A stretch of DNA of 64,000 bases. Source: Spirochaetes bacterium ADurb.BinA120. Lineage in GTDB: Bacteria > Spirochaetota > UBA4802 > UBA5368. Positions within the stretch are counted from its first letter, which is position 1, and each line of letters opens with the position of its first letter. Positions 1-50,898 of the stretch are shown piece after piece. The stretch is taken from NCBI GenBank assembly GCA_002069125.1, contig MVZN01000002.1, positions 1 through 64,000 of the forward strand. Direction: 5' to 3'. A program made the translations under genes and the position numbers. A model generated the notes under the pieces. The model ran no database searches and was not told where the DNA came from. It saw nothing but the letters and a program-made list of their open reading frames with translations.

Positions 1-3000
1 GCCGGATCCGGTGCGGAATAGCGGCCGTTTCCCGCGGATCTCCACCTCGTACCAGTGCGCGCTGTCGGAGAGCGTGTCTGGGTCGCTCGCGTACATATCG
101 TTCACCCACAGCTTTCCCGTGCCGTCGCTCACCACTATGACCTCCATATAGGAGACGCGCTTCAGATCGGGGTTGCCCTCCGACAGGGTTTTATTGATAC
201 CTCCCGCCCCGTCCCGCAGGTTGAATACAAGCTCCCGCCATATCCCGGTGACATCGTTTGCACACGTATATTCATAGTAATCGTTCTCGCTTGACCCTAT
301 CCTGACGCGGAGCGTGTCGGCGGGATTCGATGACCGCGCGTTGATCCACATATTGAATTTTTTATAGAACCTCAGGTCCATCTGCTTTGAGAACCTGCGC
401 GTAACCGAACCGTTCCCCGCCAGGTTATACTCGATCTGCAACGCGGTTTCAATTTCGGACCGCAGTTCCCTGTCGCTGCGGTCCCCGTGCAGGGACTGGT
501 AGATGTCGCTGCGCAGAAAGGCGAAGGCGTTCTGCCTGTATTCGGGATCGTTCTGGGTGTCAACCATGGTAATCTTGAAACGGCTCGGATCCTCCTCGGG
601 GACTCCATCGATCTTTACGTTCCTCCAACGGGAGGAGACGAACCTTAGGCTGTCGATATATATCTTTCCCGTGGCCGACCCCGAGGACAGCACGAAGAGC
701 CGGACGGCCTCCACCTGTTTTAGCACCTCGAGCTGGTCCTGTGTAAGGCTGTTCCGCGAGAGATAAACCCTGGCCATCCGCCAGTCTCCGCTTCCGACCT
801 CTACCTGGATTGGACCTCCCTGGGCGGCGGCGCCCGGCAGTCGGACATAGCTCTCATATCGGTCGAGCACTCCATTGCCGTTAAGATCCTCAGTATTCAA
901 AACCCCGTCCCCCAGGGTGGAATCGCCCAGCCGCGGCCCCGAGCCGATCCAGGTTTCGTAGCCGCCCGCCGGATTGAACCTGTAACCCCGGTCCTCCTGG
1001 ATGCCGGCCGAGGGGTCGAAATCGAGAAATCCGTTGTGGTTGAGGTCTTCTGTGCCTAAAAGCCCGTCCCCGTCCGAGTCCTCGTCTATCCTCCCCATGT
1101 CGATATAAAGCTCTACCCGGCCCGAAAGCGCCTCTCCGCGATACCATATCTCCATGTATTGCAGGCCCGAGAAATCCACCGCCTCCGAGGAGAGCCTGCG
1201 GGTCACTATGGGGGCATGGGTCTCGGCGCCGGCAAATTCGAACTCCATAACGAGCGAGCGCTGCGATTCGAGCTCGCGTACGGAGTTATCGACGTGCCCG
1301 GTGGCGATGTTATATGGCCCCGGCTTTCTGTCATAAGGGATTGCGTACGGGGTGAATCCGGCGCCCTTGAGGGAGCCCGCGTTCGATGGATCGCGGTAAT
1401 ACTTGTAGTACAGGCGGCCTCGCCTGTTCTGTGGAGTGGAATCGGGCATGGAGGAGAGGATCCAATCCCTGTCGGAGAGGGAGATGCCGGTAATCTCCTC
1501 GGACGACTCCATGTCGTCTATAAGCCCCTTTCCGAAGGTGTTTATGTTTTTGTAGCTCCGCGCGTATTCCGCGTAGGCCCTTATGTCAAACGGGACCGAA
1601 TCTATGGACACCCCCGGAACGGCGTTCAGCATGTCCTTTATTCTTCCTTCGGACAAGGCGAGAGAGGCATCGCCCTCGAACACCATGGTCTGCGAGGGCT
1701 CGCTACCTACAACCGGTATCACCTCGCCACCGGCCGAACGGGTGAACAGGAATGTCCCGCCGATGCCTAACTCGCGGCTTAGCCTGTAGTCGGACCTCAG
1801 CCCCCCGATGAACGACTGGGACTCCGCGGCAAACGGCATATATTCATATTTAATCTCGATGTTGGTTTCCGATCCTATCAGCGGATTATTGGGATTGGAA
1901 AAGCTCAGATATCCCGATGTATGGTCGATCGTGTAGAGCGATCTTGCGATCTCCCGCCCGTCGATTTTAATCCGCACGCTGTCCGGTATTATATTGAAGT
2001 GCTTAAGCTGAAAACTCCTCGCCTCCCTGTAATAATCCACACGCATGTCGTATACCGTACGGTCCGCCGCCAGGACCGATTGGTTCTCGGCGTACACCAG
2101 GGATTTAATGGTATTGGGAGGGCCGGGCAGCACCTGTTTGAACGGCTCCCTCAGGTGGAAACTCACCGTACCCCTCGAATAGTCGACCGTGTATTTTCCG
2201 AGCTTTTCAGTCTCCCCCCTGGTGAGGAGCTGGTTGTTCCCGAAAAACCGCAGCCTGAAGTTTTCCTGAAGCACCTGCCTCTGGCCGATGTAGTAGACCG
2301 ATCTGATCTCGTAAACGTCGAAATTCCGTTTTCCGTCATTGTTCCGGTCGTCTCCGGCATCCTCCTGGATGGCGTATCCGTATTTCAGGAACACGAATAT
2401 TTTCCCGGCAAATTGCCCGCCGGGATGTTTCGGGTCTCCCGGAACGAGCGCCGCAGGGTCAGAGGTGCCGGCACCGCCCCCTATGGTATAGACGGCGAAG
2501 ATGCGCGAATTATGCGGGATCGGCCTCAGGAGGCTTATCGTTCCCGTGCTGAAGTTTATCGTATAGTCGGAGCCCGAGACCATGCGGGTGTAGCCTCCGC
2601 CGTCGATTGAAAGCTCTATCGCGTTCAGGTTGTTCAGGGGGTTCTGGTCGTCCAGGTAGAGATCGAAGCCGTAAGGATCGATATTAACAGGATATGGCAG
2701 GTAGGACTGGGGATCCCCCGGCGGGTTCGAGGTCATGGCGACCGTTGCGAATGGGTCGCCCGGCGGGGCCGAAAGATTGTCGTAGCGCCGATAAGGCTCC
2801 AGTTGGAAATATGTCCCGCGAACATACTGGTACTCCTTAAGGGTGATGTTCCCCGCGGAAGAGTTCCCGCGGAAGTATTCGACCTCCGTCTCGCCCCGCG
2901 TGACGCTCCCGAAGGCCTTCAGTTGGAAATTCCCCTTGCGAAGGCTTACGTCCATTCCCATCCCCTTGGTATCGGTGTCGTCGTAAACCGCGTACTTGGA

Positions 3001-3630
3001 GTTGTTCATCTTGATGTCTATCTGGCCGGCGTTAATCTCCCGTATCACCTCGTCATCACGGACAGCCCGGTACTGCATCCGGTAGACATTGTCGGGCCTG
3101 TCGCTGTCGTGGTCCACATACACCGTAAAGCGTTGGCCGATGCGGCCCTCCACGTGCAACTGCGTTTCGTGTTCCGGGCTGTAGCCGCTCGCAATTACAC
3201 GCGAGACCGGCCGGTCCTGGTCAAACTGCTTATAACGCGAACTCGTAAACCTCGACTTCCCGTAATTGAGATTGAGCTTCGACGATCCGTAGGAGTTGAT
3301 ATCCACCTCGTCCTGTTCCTCTATCCGGAATTCGTCGTAACGGCCGTCCTCCGTGAGAACCCGGTAACGGGGCGCGATGATGTATTTCTCCCAGTCGCCT
3401 TTTCTATAGACCAGAGGCTCCACTTCCGGCTCCCCTGCCTCAACGGGAGGCGCGGTCGGCTCCACATATATACGGGCGGGCTCTGTTTTCTCGTGGGACT
3501 CTATGTATCTCTGAAGTGAATCGCGGAAGCCCGCATTCCTATCGGTCTCCTGGGAGAGCGCGGCGGTTATCAGGTAGAGGGAGGCCCCCGCGGCGACGAC
3601 CTTGAAATAGAGAGAAAGCCGCGGAAACAT
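1..3630 (-). CDS. Very large exported SprA-like outer-membrane/cell-surface protein (3' end beyond window)
   Basis: The reading frame is open from the ATG at 3630 to the left edge, 1210 codons without a stop. It begins with a signal peptide (residues 1-26, basic start then a VVAAGASLYLITAAL core). Residues ~120-250 show a pattern typical of the SprA N-terminal repeats: an EGRIGQRFTVYV segment, then DDEVIREINAGQID, a metal- or ligand-neutral beta-rich stretch and RGTYFQLEPYRRY. Two Asp-rich loops with TEDLNxNGxLD cores lie near residues 850-875 and 900-923, also typical of SprA. SprA is the very large outer-membrane translocon of type IX secretion in Bacteroidota and relatives. Assignment is from remembered motif order, so a distant beta-rich relative is possible. 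An in-frame stop sits a few codons upstream, so 3630 is the first usable ATG; no clear ribosome site precedes it. It follows the M23 peptidase gene on the same strand after 86 nt. Confidence 0.6.
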   Translation of the reverse strand, partial: MFPRLSLYFKVVAAGASLYLITAALSQETDRNAGFRDSLQRYIESHEKTEPARIYVEPTAPPVEAGEPEVEPLVYRKGDWEKYIIAPRYRVLTEDGRYDEFRIEEQDEVDINSYGSSKLNLNYGKSRFTSSRYKQFDQDRPVSRVIASGYSPEHETQLHVEGRIGQRFTVYVDHDSDRPDNVYRMQYRAVRDDEVIREINAGQIDIKMNNSKYAVYDDTDTKGMGMDVSLRKGNFQLKAFGSVTRGETEVEYFRGNSSAGNITLKEYQYVRGTYFQLEPYRRYDNLSAPPGDPFATVAMTSNPPGDPQSYLPYPVNIDPYGFDLYLDDQNPLNNLNAIELSIDGGGYTRMVSGSDYTINFSTGTISLLRPIPHNSRIFAVYTIGGGAGTSDPAALVPGDPKHPGGQFAGKIFVFLKYGYAIQEDAGDDRNNDGKRNFDVYEIRSVYYIGQRQVLQENFRLRFFGNNQLLTRGETEKLGKYTVDYSRGTVSFHLREPFKQVLPGPPNTIKSLVYAENQSVLAADRTVYDMRVDYYREARSFQLKHFNIIPDSVRIKIDGREIARSLYTIDHTSGYLSFSNPNNPLIGSETNIEIKYEYMPFAAESQSFIGGLRSDYRLSRELGIGGTFLFTRSAGGEVIPVVGSEPSQTMVFEGDASLALSEGRIKDMLNAVPGVSIDSVPFDIRAYAEYARSYKNINTFGKGLIDDMESSEEITGISLSDRDWILSSMPDSTPQNRRGRLYYKYYRDPSNAGSLKGAGFTPYAIPYDRKPGPYNIATGHVDNSVRELESQRSLVMEFEFAGAETHAPIVTRRLSSEAVDFSGLQYMEIWYRGEALSGRVELYIDMGRIDEDSDGDGLLGTEDLNHNGFLDFDPSAGIQEDRGYRFNPAGGYETWIGSGPRLGDSTLGDGVLNTEDLNGNGVLDRYESYVRLPGAAAQGGPIQVEVGSGDWRMARVYLSRNSLTQDQLEVLKQVEAVRLFVLSSGSATGKIYIDSLRFVSSRWRNVKIDGVPEEDPSRFKITMVDTQNDPEYRQNAFAFLRSDIYQSLHGDRSDRELRSEIETALQIEYNLAGNGSVTRRFSKQMDLRFYKKFNMWINARSSNPADTLRVRIGSSENDYYEYTCANDVTGIWRELVFNLRDGAGGINKTLSEGNPDLKRVSYMEVIVVSDGTGKLWVNDMYASDPDTLSDSAHWYEVEIRGKRPLFRTGSG

Positions 3631-3716: not shown

Positions 3717-4715
3717 CTACCAGATCCTGCTCATATACGGATAAGGATTTATCGCCACGGTGCCGAGGCGGATTTCATAATGGCAGTGGTTTCCGGTCGC
3801 GGACCCTGTCTGGCCGACGTAGGCCACTACCTGTCCTTTGCGTACGTTCTCGCCGACTCCGACCGCTATGCGCGAACAGTGGCCATAGATCGTCTCGAAA
3901 CCGTACTTGTGACGCACCCGCACCATGTAGCCATAGCCGCCGCTCCAGCCGGACGAAACGACGACTCCGGGCGCGGTCACACGTATCTCCGCTCCGTAAG
4001 ACGCGGCGATATCGATCCCCGTATGGAAGTCGCGGCCGAAACCGAACGGCGACCTGCGCCACCCGAAAAGGGAGGTTATGTGACCCTGGGCGGGAACGAT
4101 CGACGGGGTGTCGTTTATCACCTTGCTGCGGATGTCCACGAAGTTCTTGACGGTCTTGATGGTGTTCGTGGTGCACACCAGGTTTTTCTGAAGCTCTCTC
4201 AGCGTTTCGATCTCCTCCGGAAGGAGGGGTTTCACGCTCTTGTCCTCGGCGATGGACTGGTATTCTCCGGTTTCGAGCTTCCATATTTTATCGAGGTTTC
4301 CGTTGTCACCGGCGGCGAGCTCATAGAGCTCTTCGATGTCCGGGCGCATCTCGTCCATTAGGTCCGCGATGTTGTTGGTGAGCTTCTCGAAGCGCAGAAG
4401 GCTCGATTTCACGTCCCTGTAGTTCATCATCAACCGCGCCTCCTCGCGCTTAGAGCTCGCGTTCTTGATGATGGCGTAAGACGATGTAACCACGACCACG
4501 AGGAAGAGCAGCACGAAGAACGATATGGTGAACTTGGAGATCTGGAAATTGAATATCCTTTTCTCGTTATGGGGGATGAACATCACCGTCATCCTCTCGT
4601 GGCCCTTCTCGCGAAAGCCGTCCCACCATCTGTCGTACTTCTTTTTCCAGATATGATATCTCTCGGAAAAACGCATTTTAAAGCTGTTATGGTATTGCCG
4701 TATCCTGAATTTCAT
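3717..4715 (-). CDS. M23 (LytM-type) peptidase, membrane anchored
   Basis: This 332-residue protein has a cytoplasmic basic start, one transmembrane helix at about residues 62-84, a helical linker, and a C-terminal LytM domain from about residue 212. The zinc-site signatures are both present: HTGID (HxxxD, near residue 231) and HCHYE (HxH, near residue 310), so an active metalloendopeptidase cutting peptidoglycan cross-bridges is expected, although some membrane-anchored homologues act as activators of other hydrolases. The domain faces the periplasm. It is transcribed away from the YkgJ-like gene and ahead of the SprA-like gene. A sigma70-like promoter is proposed at 4766-4792. Confidence 0.9.
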   Translation of the reverse strand: MKFRIRQYHNSFKMRFSERYHIWKKKYDRWWDGFREKGHERMTVMFIPHNEKRIFNFQISKFTISFFVLLFLVVVVTSSYAIIKNASSKREEARLMMNYRDVKSSLLRFEKLTNNIADLMDEMRPDIEELYELAAGDNGNLDKIWKLETGEYQSIAEDKSVKPLLPEEIETLRELQKNLVCTTNTIKTVKNFVDIRSKVINDTPSIVPAQGHITSLFGWRRSPFGFGRDFHTGIDIAASYGAEIRVTAPGVVVSSGWSGGYGYMVRVRHKYGFETIYGHCSRIAVGVGENVRKGQVVAYVGQTGSATGNHCHYEIRLGTVAINPYPYMSRIW

Positions 4716-30451: not shown

Positions 30452-33400
30452 ATGAGCCTGTTAAAGGAATTCAGCTATTCCGATATATTTCAACGGCGTC
30501 TGATATACTATAATCTTTCCGCCACGATTTTTCTCGTCACATTTATATTCTCGGATATCTCGCTCGCGTTCAACCACTACGCGCCGTATGAATCAACCTT
30601 CAGAATCGTGTTTCTCGCCGTTCTCGCCGGCCTCACCCTGGGAAATCTGGCCGGCCGATCGCTCTTTTCGAAGTCCGGCCGTTACCGGCTCATATATATG
30701 CTGTCCGACCTCGCCTTCACCGTCGGATGCGCACTCTTCCTGGCCAGAAAGCACCTCGCCTCCGGCGTGGGGGAGCCCCTTCTCGATCTCTTCTTCAGCC
30801 ACCGGTTTGCGCTTTACACAGCGGTCCTTCTTATTTCGTTTTTTACCGGGATGAAAGGCGTCTATTTCCTCAAAATTGCCTGCGGGGATTTCATCGATGA
30901 CCACAGGAGCCTCCTGGGATTTTTCATGATAATCCTCGCCGCCGTTGCCGCGGGAATGGCGCACGCATTTTTATCCTTTCATGTCCCAAGGGCCTATTAT
31001 GCCGCGTTCGTTCCGGTGATGCTGATACTTCCGACCCTTTTTCTCATACGGCTCCCCTATTTCCCGCAGACGATGTACGCACAGGAATACAAGGAACATC
31101 ATCACGAAACCGGAAACGCCGCGAGAAAAAGGGAGGATATAGCCTTCGCTTATCTGGGTTTTTCCTACATTCTTCTCTACCTTTTTTTCGGCTATCAGAC
31201 CATTACAAGGGTCCTCGGCGATTTCATTCATGTTCAGCTTCTTTATATATTCGCCTGCGCCGCGGCGCTTATGGCCGGCTTTGCCCTGGCCCGCCTGCTG
31301 AAAAAACCATATCTTCCATTGTACACGGAGGTGCTCTATCCCCCCGCGTTCGTTTTGTTCTTCGTCGCGGTTTACGCAACAGGAGGCGGCCTCGGCACCA
31401 TGGCCACAGTCTCCCTTTTCATCCCCGTAGCCGGCGTATTCGGCTTCTCGATGTATCATATGCTGCGGGAGATAATCGAAACATACGATCACGCGAAACG
31501 CTTTGCGATAATAGATTTCTCGCTCCTTATACTTCCCGCTCCAATCCTGGCCGCTCTCAACCTGTTCGATTTTACCAATCTGTGGTTTTTCATCCTTCTA
31601 TACGCGGTCTTCCTTATGAACACGGCCCTTCCGGTCATAAACCTCGCGCAGTCCGAAAGAAGACCCCTGGTAAAGACCCTGTATCTCGCGGGCGCGGTAG
31701 CGCTGATTCCTATAATGCTCTTTGTGCACATCAACTTCGACATCGCCCTGAACGGAAGGCTTTATGTAAGTCATATCAGCGGCTACGCCGACATCGCCTC
31801 CGAGGACGCACCTTCCCGCCCCGGCGCCGGCGAAGAATCCGTCCGTTTCAACGGGCGCGACATATTCTCCTCCCGCGACGATACCGTGAAAAACCTCTGG
31901 CGGGCCCTCGTCCCTTTGGCCCTTTTCGCAAAGACGCCGGAAGACGGCGGGAGCCGGATACTTTTTATAGACGGCAACCAGCGCTTCTATCGAAACCCCG
32001 CCATCGCCTACTTTCCCGGCGCCGTTTGCCTCGACTACATCCCGCCCCGCGCCGTCGACTTCAGGGAGCCGCCGTTTACCGGCAGGGATTTTTACTTCGT
32101 GGAGCACGGAGAGATCCTCCGCTACCTGAAATCCATGGAATCCCCCGCCAATATGATCGTCGACATACCCAATCTCTATGATCTGGCGTGCAACCGCTTC
32201 AGGTTCACCGAGGAGTATTACGCTATAGCCGGCCGCTCCATTTCGCGGGACGGATTATTCGTCCAGGTCCTCAACCTTTCTCGCGTCGATTCACACACCC
32301 TCTCCTCGGCGCTGTCCGGGCTGAAGGGGCAATTCGGCCATTTCGCGGGATTTCTTTTCTCCGACCATCTCGTCCTTCTCTGCGCCAGGACCGCATCGGC
32401 CCTCGAGCTCACCCGTGAGGGCTTCGAGAGGATGAGCGCCCTTTTCGGAAGCAGGCCCGATCTGGCCGGACTTTTTATCAACGAGTATCAGCCCCTTGCG
32501 CACCTTCTCTTTACCGACATAGACGACATGCTGGCCTCGTTGAAGGATTCGGGGACCAATCCCTGGCCTTGCCCGGAGAAGGGTTCGGGTTTCTCGTTAG
32601 ACGCGAATCTGGAAAACGTCTATCTGTCCGACAATCTCAGAATAGGGACGCTTATCCCGGATGGGCTTCAGTCCACGTACTTCCGTGCCGGCATACTGGC
32701 AGGCCTGCGGGCCAGAGGACAGGCCTTCTCCATGATGAAAAAGGCCTCCCTCATGGAGGTCCGGGGCGAATTCGACGGGGAAACCGCCATCCTCGCGCAG
32801 CTCGGAAGGATGGGCGACTACCAGCCCGACCTGAGGGCATACATCACCTCACTCCTGGCGTTCAAGGAGCGGCATTATTTCGCCGAGGCTGTCCGGCTGG
32901 AAAAGGGGCGCGGCTGGAACGACGCCGGCACCCTTTACAGGGCGATAATCAACATCAACCCGGACAATTTCGAGGCGAACTACCGGCTCGGCATGCTGTC
33001 GATAACCGTTCAGAACCTCGATGACGCGTTTGTTTATCTTCAGAAGGCCATGTCGCTCAAGCGCGATGATACAAAGGTGCTCTATCAGATGGGTGTGCTT
33101 TTATTCGCGATGGGCCGTCCAAGGGAGGCGCTGGAGTATTTTACCCGCGCCATGGAGCTCAGGGAAAGCACCGCCGGCATATTCCACTACACCGGCCTCT
33201 GTTATGAAAAGCTCGGCAGGACCCAGGAGGCCAAAACCTATTACGAGAAGGCCCTGCTCGCCGATCCGAACGACTGCGCCATCCAGTCGAGCCTTAAAAG
33301 GATCGAAACGGCGATCGAGGAGGAAAAAAGCCGCTGGAAAACCCCCGATCCGCGCAACCAGTTCGAAGTCGAACAGGGCGAGAGCATACCGCTTCCCATC

Positions 33401-33466
33401 AACCAATCAGCCAGGGACGTCAGGCTGGACGATAAGGAAGCGGAGTCCGCCGAGGAACGTCCCTAA
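30452..33466 (+). CDS. Polytopic membrane protein fused to a degenerate spermidine-synthase-like domain and TPRs
   Basis: The 1004-residue protein has about ten to twelve hydrophobic segments (residues ~20-430), resembling the membrane part of fused MFS/spermidine-synthase proteins. Next comes a cytoplasmic Rossmann-like region (~500-660): RILFIDGNQRFYRNPAIAYF occupies the place of the usual glycine-rich SAM loop, and DIPNLYDLACNRFRFTEEY and LFVQVLNL match the following synthase elements. Residues ~815-950 hold three or four TPRs. The glycine loop appears lost, so polyamine or methyl-type catalysis is unlikely. A scaffold or sensor role is my inference. It ends in a 4-nt overlap with the convergent 3D-domain gene. 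Confidence 0.75.
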   Translation: MSLLKEFSYSDIFQRRLIYYNLSATIFLVTFIFSDISLAFNHYAPYESTFRIVFLAVLAGLTLGNLAGRSLFSKSGRYRLIYMLSDLAFTVGCALFLARKHLASGVGEPLLDLFFSHRFALYTAVLLISFFTGMKGVYFLKIACGDFIDDHRSLLGFFMIILAAVAAGMAHAFLSFHVPRAYYAAFVPVMLILPTLFLIRLPYFPQTMYAQEYKEHHHETGNAARKREDIAFAYLGFSYILLYLFFGYQTITRVLGDFIHVQLLYIFACAAALMAGFALARLLKKPYLPLYTEVLYPPAFVLFFVAVYATGGGLGTMATVSLFIPVAGVFGFSMYHMLREIIETYDHAKRFAIIDFSLLILPAPILAALNLFDFTNLWFFILLYAVFLMNTALPVINLAQSERRPLVKTLYLAGAVALIPIMLFVHINFDIALNGRLYVSHISGYADIASEDAPSRPGAGEESVRFNGRDIFSSRDDTVKNLWRALVPLALFAKTPEDGGSRILFIDGNQRFYRNPAIAYFPGAVCLDYIPPRAVDFREPPFTGRDFYFVEHGEILRYLKSMESPANMIVDIPNLYDLACNRFRFTEEYYAIAGRSISRDGLFVQVLNLSRVDSHTLSSALSGLKGQFGHFAGFLFSDHLVLLCARTASALELTREGFERMSALFGSRPDLAGLFINEYQPLAHLLFTDIDDMLASLKDSGTNPWPCPEKGSGFSLDANLENVYLSDNLRIGTLIPDGLQSTYFRAGILAGLRARGQAFSMMKKASLMEVRGEFDGETAILAQLGRMGDYQPDLRAYITSLLAFKERHYFAEAVRLEKGRGWNDAGTLYRAIININPDNFEANYRLGMLSITVQNLDDAFVYLQKAMSLKRDDTKVLYQMGVLLFAMGRPREALEYFTRAMELRESTAGIFHYTGLCYEKLGRTQEAKTYYEKALLADPNDCAIQSSLKRIETAIEEEKSRWKTPDPRNQFEVEQGESIPLPINQSARDVRLDDKEAESAEERP

Positions 33467-50049: not shown

Positions 50050-50898
50050 ATGATCATAAACCACAACGTGAGCGCGATTTTCGCCCACCGCACGCTCAAA
50101 TTTCACGACTGGAGCATTACACAGGACATCGAAAAGCTTTCGTCCGGAATGCGCATAAACAAGGCCGGCGACGACGCCTCCGGACTCGCGGTGTCCGAAA
50201 AGATGCGCTCTCAGATAAGCGGGCTTCGCCAGGCCGAGCGGAATACCGAGGACGGCATGTCGATGATCCAGACCGCCGAGGGCTATCTGCAGCAGACGCA
50301 CGACATCCTTCAGCGCATAAGGGTGCTCGCGGTCCAGTCGGCCAACGGAATTTACACCCCCGAAGACCGTCAGCAGATCCAGGTGGAGATCTCGGAGCTC
50401 GTCGACGAAATCGACCGTATCTCCTCGCAGGCGGAATTTAACAAGATGAAGCTCCTCACCGGGGCGTTCGCAAGGCTCCATCCGACCGCATCGATGTGGT
50501 TTCACATGGGCCCGAACATGCATCAGCGCGAGCGGGTGTTCATAGAGACCATGACCACGGCGGCGCTTGGGCTCCGCAACCCCACCGTGCTTACCTTCAT
50601 CTCGATCTCTACGCCCGGAAAGGCCAACGCCGTCATCGGCATAGCCGACGAGGCTCTTCGCATAATCTCCAAGCAGCGAGCCGACCTGGGCGCCTACTAC
50701 AATCGCCTGGAGCACGCGGCCAAGGGTCTCATGAACGCCTACGAGAACGTACAGGCGTCGGAAAGCCGTATACGCGACACCGACATGGCCGAACAGATGT
50801 CCTCGTTCGTACGATATCAGATCCTTACGCAGGCGGCTACGGCAATGCTCGCGCAGGCGAACACAAAGTCACAGACCGTTCTGCAGCTGTTACGTTAA
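50050..50898 (+). CDS. flaB: Core flagellin FlaB
   Basis: The 282-residue product contains the conserved flagellin N-terminal ([20 protein letters not shown], then [20 protein letters not shown]) and C-terminal ([18 protein letters not shown], ending [16 protein letters not shown]) helices, with a short middle carrying MWFHMGPN. This is the spirochaete FlaB form, which builds the periplasmic filament core. There is no signal peptide, as expected for export by the flagellar apparatus. AAGGAGGAAGG precedes the ATG. Confidence 0.97.

Follow-up and report, generated by a model that had tools for sequence, protein, structure and literature searches.

The gene that opens the window (the whole 64,000-nucleotide stretch of DNA analysed here, bases 1-64000 of contig C2) probably specifies the outer-membrane pore of a type IX-like secretion system that Spirochaetota possess natively, a diverged relative of the SprA/Sov translocons. 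The most likely interpretation is that this SprA-type pore belongs to a type IX-like system which is reduced and lies outside the FCB superphylum. The data support a spirochaetal homologue of SprA; they are not taken to show a complete type IX secretion system (T9SS). A 2016 survey found the T9SS in Bacteroidetes only (PMC4793230), and a 2024 paper considered that it may occur in other FCB phyla and that phyla beyond this group lack its genes (PMC11285876). Searches of open-licence papers gave no account of SprA or a T9SS in spirochaetes. The new element is a SprA, identified by homology and predicted fold, in a new phylum and with a partner set that is reduced or different.

Identification of the SprA-like protein

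The source genome is a 3.51-Mb assembly of 216 contigs (completeness 95.8%). The gene is a single open frame of 1210 codons that begins with ATG and runs off the start of the window, which is also the start of the contig, without a stop (Table 1). It is cut by the end of contig C2 and its missing part was located on contig C61 of the same genome (L003:13866-15932), whose last 75 bp are identical to the opening 75 bp of the window. Joining C2 and C61 gave a frame of 1898 amino acids with one stop and the C-terminal end FGLNFTLVF. We consider this join correct because three relatives, 80-88% identical, carry uninterrupted versions of the same length (1897-1903 amino acids).

An earlier note, made from the letters of this DNA, had described a SprA-like secreted protein with an N-terminal repeat pattern, a RGTYFQLEPYRRY-type stretch and two Asp-rich TEDLNxNGxLD loops. 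The open frame and these motifs were present, the latter located at residues 271, 860 and 913 (RGTYFQLEPYRRY spans residues 271-283), and NTFGKGLIDDMES was mostly kept across the SprA-like family. Self-BLAST revealed no internal repeat, leaving the repeat pattern unsupported at this level, and the protein is better described as a predicted outer-membrane barrel bearing a signal peptide than as a secreted protein.

Table 1. Coordinates of the SprA-like gene, its parts and its upstream neighbour in the window
Feature	Position	Strand	Basis
SprA-like outer-membrane translocon (predicted), residues 1-1210 of 1898	1..3630	-	profile, overlap, fold, family search
Predicted Sec signal peptide, ~residues 1-25 (MFPRLSLYFKVVAAGASLYLITAALS)	3556..3630	-	sequence; inference
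Stretch matching TIGR04189 positions 129-262, includes RGTYFQLEPYRRY at 2782-2820	2782..3189	-	profile search
Best SprA profile stretch, TIGR04189 positions 520-791, holds NTFGKGLIDDMES at 1504-1542	1435..2211	-	profile search
Asp-rich loop 1, DSDGDGLLGTEDLNHNGFLD, residues 851-870	1018..1080	-	sequence
Asp-rich loop 2, GDGVLNTEDLNGNGVLD, residues ~907-923	862..912	-	sequence
Gene for an M23 peptidase, immediate upstream neighbour of the SprA-like gene	3717..4715	-	same order in most host-order genomes

The likeness to SprA withstood two independent tests, a profile search and a fold comparison. The NCBIfam model for the T9SS outer membrane translocon Sov/SprA (TIGR04189) matched the window protein in four stretches (E = 4.6e-39, 133.5 bits), collinear with the profile (Table 1), and the full-length 1898-residue protein at 132 bits. 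Nineteen of 20 relatives were also matched (best E = 2.3e-49). The equivalog cut-off that NCBI sets for this model, 200 bits, was reached in none of the 393 sampled genomes of the phylum, the window's own included. The search with the Pfam SprA_N model (PF14349), which the earlier note had put forward as a check, gave no match to residues 1-1210 up to E = 1. PDB sequence searches, with the protein alone and with a 20-sequence profile, returned no matches, so that the case for homology to the solved SprA is built on the NCBIfam profile together with the folds.

For the fold comparison, window residues 26-1210 were modelled with AlphaFold2 from a 36-sequence alignment (mean pLDDT 78). The top four PDB matches retrieved by Foldseek were all Flavobacterium SprA (8gl8, E = 4.1e-42; 8gl6, 3.0e-41; 6h3i, 6.1e-37; 6h3j, 5.5e-26), with TM-scores by query length of 0.51-0.59 (0.59 for the match with the best E value), and the next, unrelated match followed at 3.2e-7. 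For the C-terminal half, the sequence of the closest relative, L054 (88% identical; residues 705-1898), was used, and the resulting model (pLDDT 88) contained 28 strands of at least 12 residues. Its top four matches were the same SprA structures (7.1e-27 to 1.4e-21; next match 3.7e-6). SprA was thus the sole strong fold match of both half-models, in line with the SprA reading of the earlier note, at 11-14% identity in the structural alignments of both halves. A closed full barrel would follow from combining these two separately modelled halves.

Distribution across Spirochaetota

TIGR04189 matches were detected in 76 of the 393 sampled Spirochaetota genomes, including 42 of 46 from the host order. 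A profile built from the family itself extended this to 93/393 and 44/46, respectively, making the SprA-like gene near-universal in the host order, where it is also single-copy. Outside the host order, matches were spread over many families, among them faint ones to proteins of about 1600 amino acids. In G329, G374, G255, G297, G142, G370, G376, G006, G049, G203 and G027, proteins of ~1570-1760 amino acids gave weak matches to the central part of the SprA-like profile; they may constitute a shorter, divergent SprA-like family in other spirochaete families.

The usual layout in the host order consists of the M23 peptidase gene, then the SprA-like gene, then a convergent DHH-type gene and a SpoIIE-type gene (the last two names come from reading the sequence). 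Nearly all named relatives were Spirochaetes/Spirochaetota or Leptospiraceae metagenome-assembled genomes, with a few same-family loci labelled Bacteroidetes, Hydrogenedentota, Caldithrix or uncultured bacterium. The spirochaete assignment of the contig is further supported by a flagellin gene (282 amino acids) at 50050-50898 of the window. Together, the relatives' names, the order-wide presence and this flagellin bear out the earlier proposal of a spirochaete host. Elsewhere in the window (30452-33466), a 1004-residue protein with C-terminal TPR repeats weakly matched the periplasmic flagellar collar protein FlcA.

PorV-family proteins, CTD domains and motor proteins

Barrels of ~400 amino acids belonging to the PorV family (PorV_fam, NF033709) scored above the curated cut-off in 30/45 host-order genomes. 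Phylum-wide, 50 genomes exceeded this cut-off and 46 of these were SprA-positive, compared with 47 of the 343 others. The co-occurrence of PorV and SprA gave Fisher P values of ~4e-29 across the phylum and 2e-13 outside the host order, which are indicative only because related genomes are not independent. In the window's own assembly the profile search returned no strong PorV; a divergent PorV-like barrel was present, and a strong PorV occurred in sister genomes of the same genus. PorV relatives resembling UPF0164 (PF03687) were common below the cut-off in SprA-negative genomes, and PorV alone is therefore not diagnostic.

The type IX sorting-signal domain (CTD) was likewise represented. Por_Secre_tail (PF18962) matches occurred in 18/45 host-order genomes, above the Pfam cut-off in the window's own genome, and mostly corresponded to a stand-alone protein of ~120 amino acids. 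The gene for this mini-CTD is flanked on one side by a tlyA-like gene and on the other by the gene for a PorV-like barrel; in one genus the domain lies inside a frame of ~440 amino acids, consistent with fusion to the PorV-like barrel. A profile made from the mini-CTD recovered it in most of the host order. The host-order domain also resembles FlgD_ig. In the host order, the searches recovered no large protein that clearly ends in a CTD; the other CTD-like matches inspected were internal, for example in an OmpA-tailed barrel protein. In other SprA-positive families, CTDs were found at the extreme C-terminus of proteins of 500-1200 amino acids (six examples retrieved).

Three genomes of these SprA-positive families, G012, G025 and G036, had 14-20 PF18962 matches each, and dozens of PorV-family and CTD candidates were observed in them. 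The expansion has the look of an extensive set of type IX-like cargo. Two contigs of the window's own genome end in mini-CTD genes (L136:9961-10315 on C33 and L137:17219-17644 on C52) that had an identical N-terminal part and diverged after YPVPYNP, which suggests a tandem pair that may have been collapsed in assembly. A further frame of ~880 amino acids (L140:9420-12059), with similar ones in the order, combined a PorV-like part, a middle CHU_C/FlgD_ig domain and a terminal OmpA domain; frames of this type may represent a type IX-like signal domain fused within a putative peptidoglycan-binding barrel. The PF18962 matches on G122:C38, G057:C118 and G180:C307 were set aside as probable bin contamination, given their short contigs and Bacteroidota-like genes.

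The two motor proteins were sought without a positive-control genome: GldM (TIGR03517) was not found in 45 host-order genomes, and GldL (TIGR03513) did not exceed its cut-off in 32 mostly SprA-positive genomes, matches of 16-24 bits being treated as coiled-coil noise. Of the further T9SS parts that the earlier note proposed to look for, PorV-family proteins and CTD domains were found in the genome and its order.

Alternative readings, proposed route and known systems

Could the gene have another origin or another role? It is extremely improbable that the contig, or the gene alone, entered the spirochaete bin as contamination from Bacteroidota or by a recent transfer. The reported absence of the T9SS outside the FCB phyla (PMC11285876) would favour such an origin, but we consider contamination ruled out because the gene is near-universal in the order (44/46 genomes, long contigs included), its neighbours are conserved and its named relatives are almost all Spirochaetota; the flagellin on the same contig points the same way. 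An ancient transfer of the SprA gene into the phylum is possible. Nearly excluded, too, is that a giant outer-membrane barrel of separate ancestry looks like SprA through its composition alone. The low identity in the structural alignments, the lack of a SprA_N match and the empty PDB sequence searches would suit such a protein, whereas the TIGR04189 E value would not, and nor would the fold comparisons, in which SprA led the next family by 15-35 orders of magnitude for both halves.

The function of a true homologue is a separate matter. SprA by descent may no longer act as a general exporter in the host order and may serve the mini-CTD/PorV-like barrel as one dedicated pair, or have a different role in the envelope, for instance in outer-membrane biogenesis, a scenario we regard as unlikely. 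In its favour are the lack of large CTD-tailed cargo found in the host order, the failure to find GldL and GldM in searches run without a positive control, the mini-CTD adjoining its PorV-like barrel (with the longer, fusion-consistent frame in one genus) and the placement of the SprA-like gene among housekeeping genes. Against it, a strong PorV is kept in most host-order genomes and C-terminal CTDs are numerous in other SprA-positive families of the phylum.

We return to the preferred reading, a SprA-type translocon within a type IX-like system. In Flavobacterium, SprA forms a 36-strand barrel that is capped on the outside and has a sideways opening where PorV docks; the substrate CTD binds PorV loops within the pore and motor power pulls the PorV-substrate pair out (PMC10994853). 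By analogy, the spirochaete protein would leave the cytoplasm through Sec and become a very large barrel inserted in the outer membrane, a PorV-type carrier would dock at its lateral opening, and the CTD of a periplasmic substrate would bind within the pore before the PorV-CTD pair exits sideways (PMC10994853). The most visible candidate client in the host order is the stand-alone CTD protein encoded beside the PorV-like barrel. This Flavobacterium-type route is the best-supported reading because the predicted SprA fold, PorV relatives and CTD domains occur in the same genomes. A bolder reading, less likely than not, is a native and ancient SprA-PorV-CTD system in Spirochaetota that lacks the GldLM motor and, in the host order, handles a minimal free-standing CTD protein. 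If so, translocon and carrier can work with another motor or with no dedicated one, and the T9SS translocon would predate the FCB superphylum and the gliding machinery or be separable from them. An order-wide spirochaete SprA accompanied by PorV and CTD domains, with no motor detected, would change the picture of the place and time of origin of the T9SS. It also points to a way to the cell surface in Spirochaetota that has gone unrecognised, and it offers a natural test of which T9SS parts are essential.

The closest known systems are SprA of F. johnsoniae (6h3i, 6h3j, 8gl6, 8gl8) and Sov of Porphyromonas gingivalis. Unlike these, the spirochaete protein has a Spirochaetota host and comprises 1898 residues against the 2319 positions of the SprA profile; it further departs from SprA in its sub-equivalog TIGR04189 score, its lack of a Pfam SprA_N match, its low structural-alignment identity and a GldL/GldM motor that was not found (no positive control). 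It shares with them the signal peptide, the very large predicted barrel, SprA as top structural match of both halves, the order of the profile stretches, and genomes that also encode CTD domains and a PorV partner family. The host-order PorV-family barrels resemble PorV/PorQ (NF033709) in size and score, and UPF0164 (PF03687) differs in occurring, below the PorV cut-off, also in spirochaetes without SprA. Finally, the host-order CTD resembles the Type A CTD (Por_Secre_tail, PF18962) in its YPVP/YPNP start, G-x-Y core and Lys-containing terminal strand, and differs in being a stand-alone, partly FlgD_ig-like protein of ~120 amino acids beside a PorV-like barrel.
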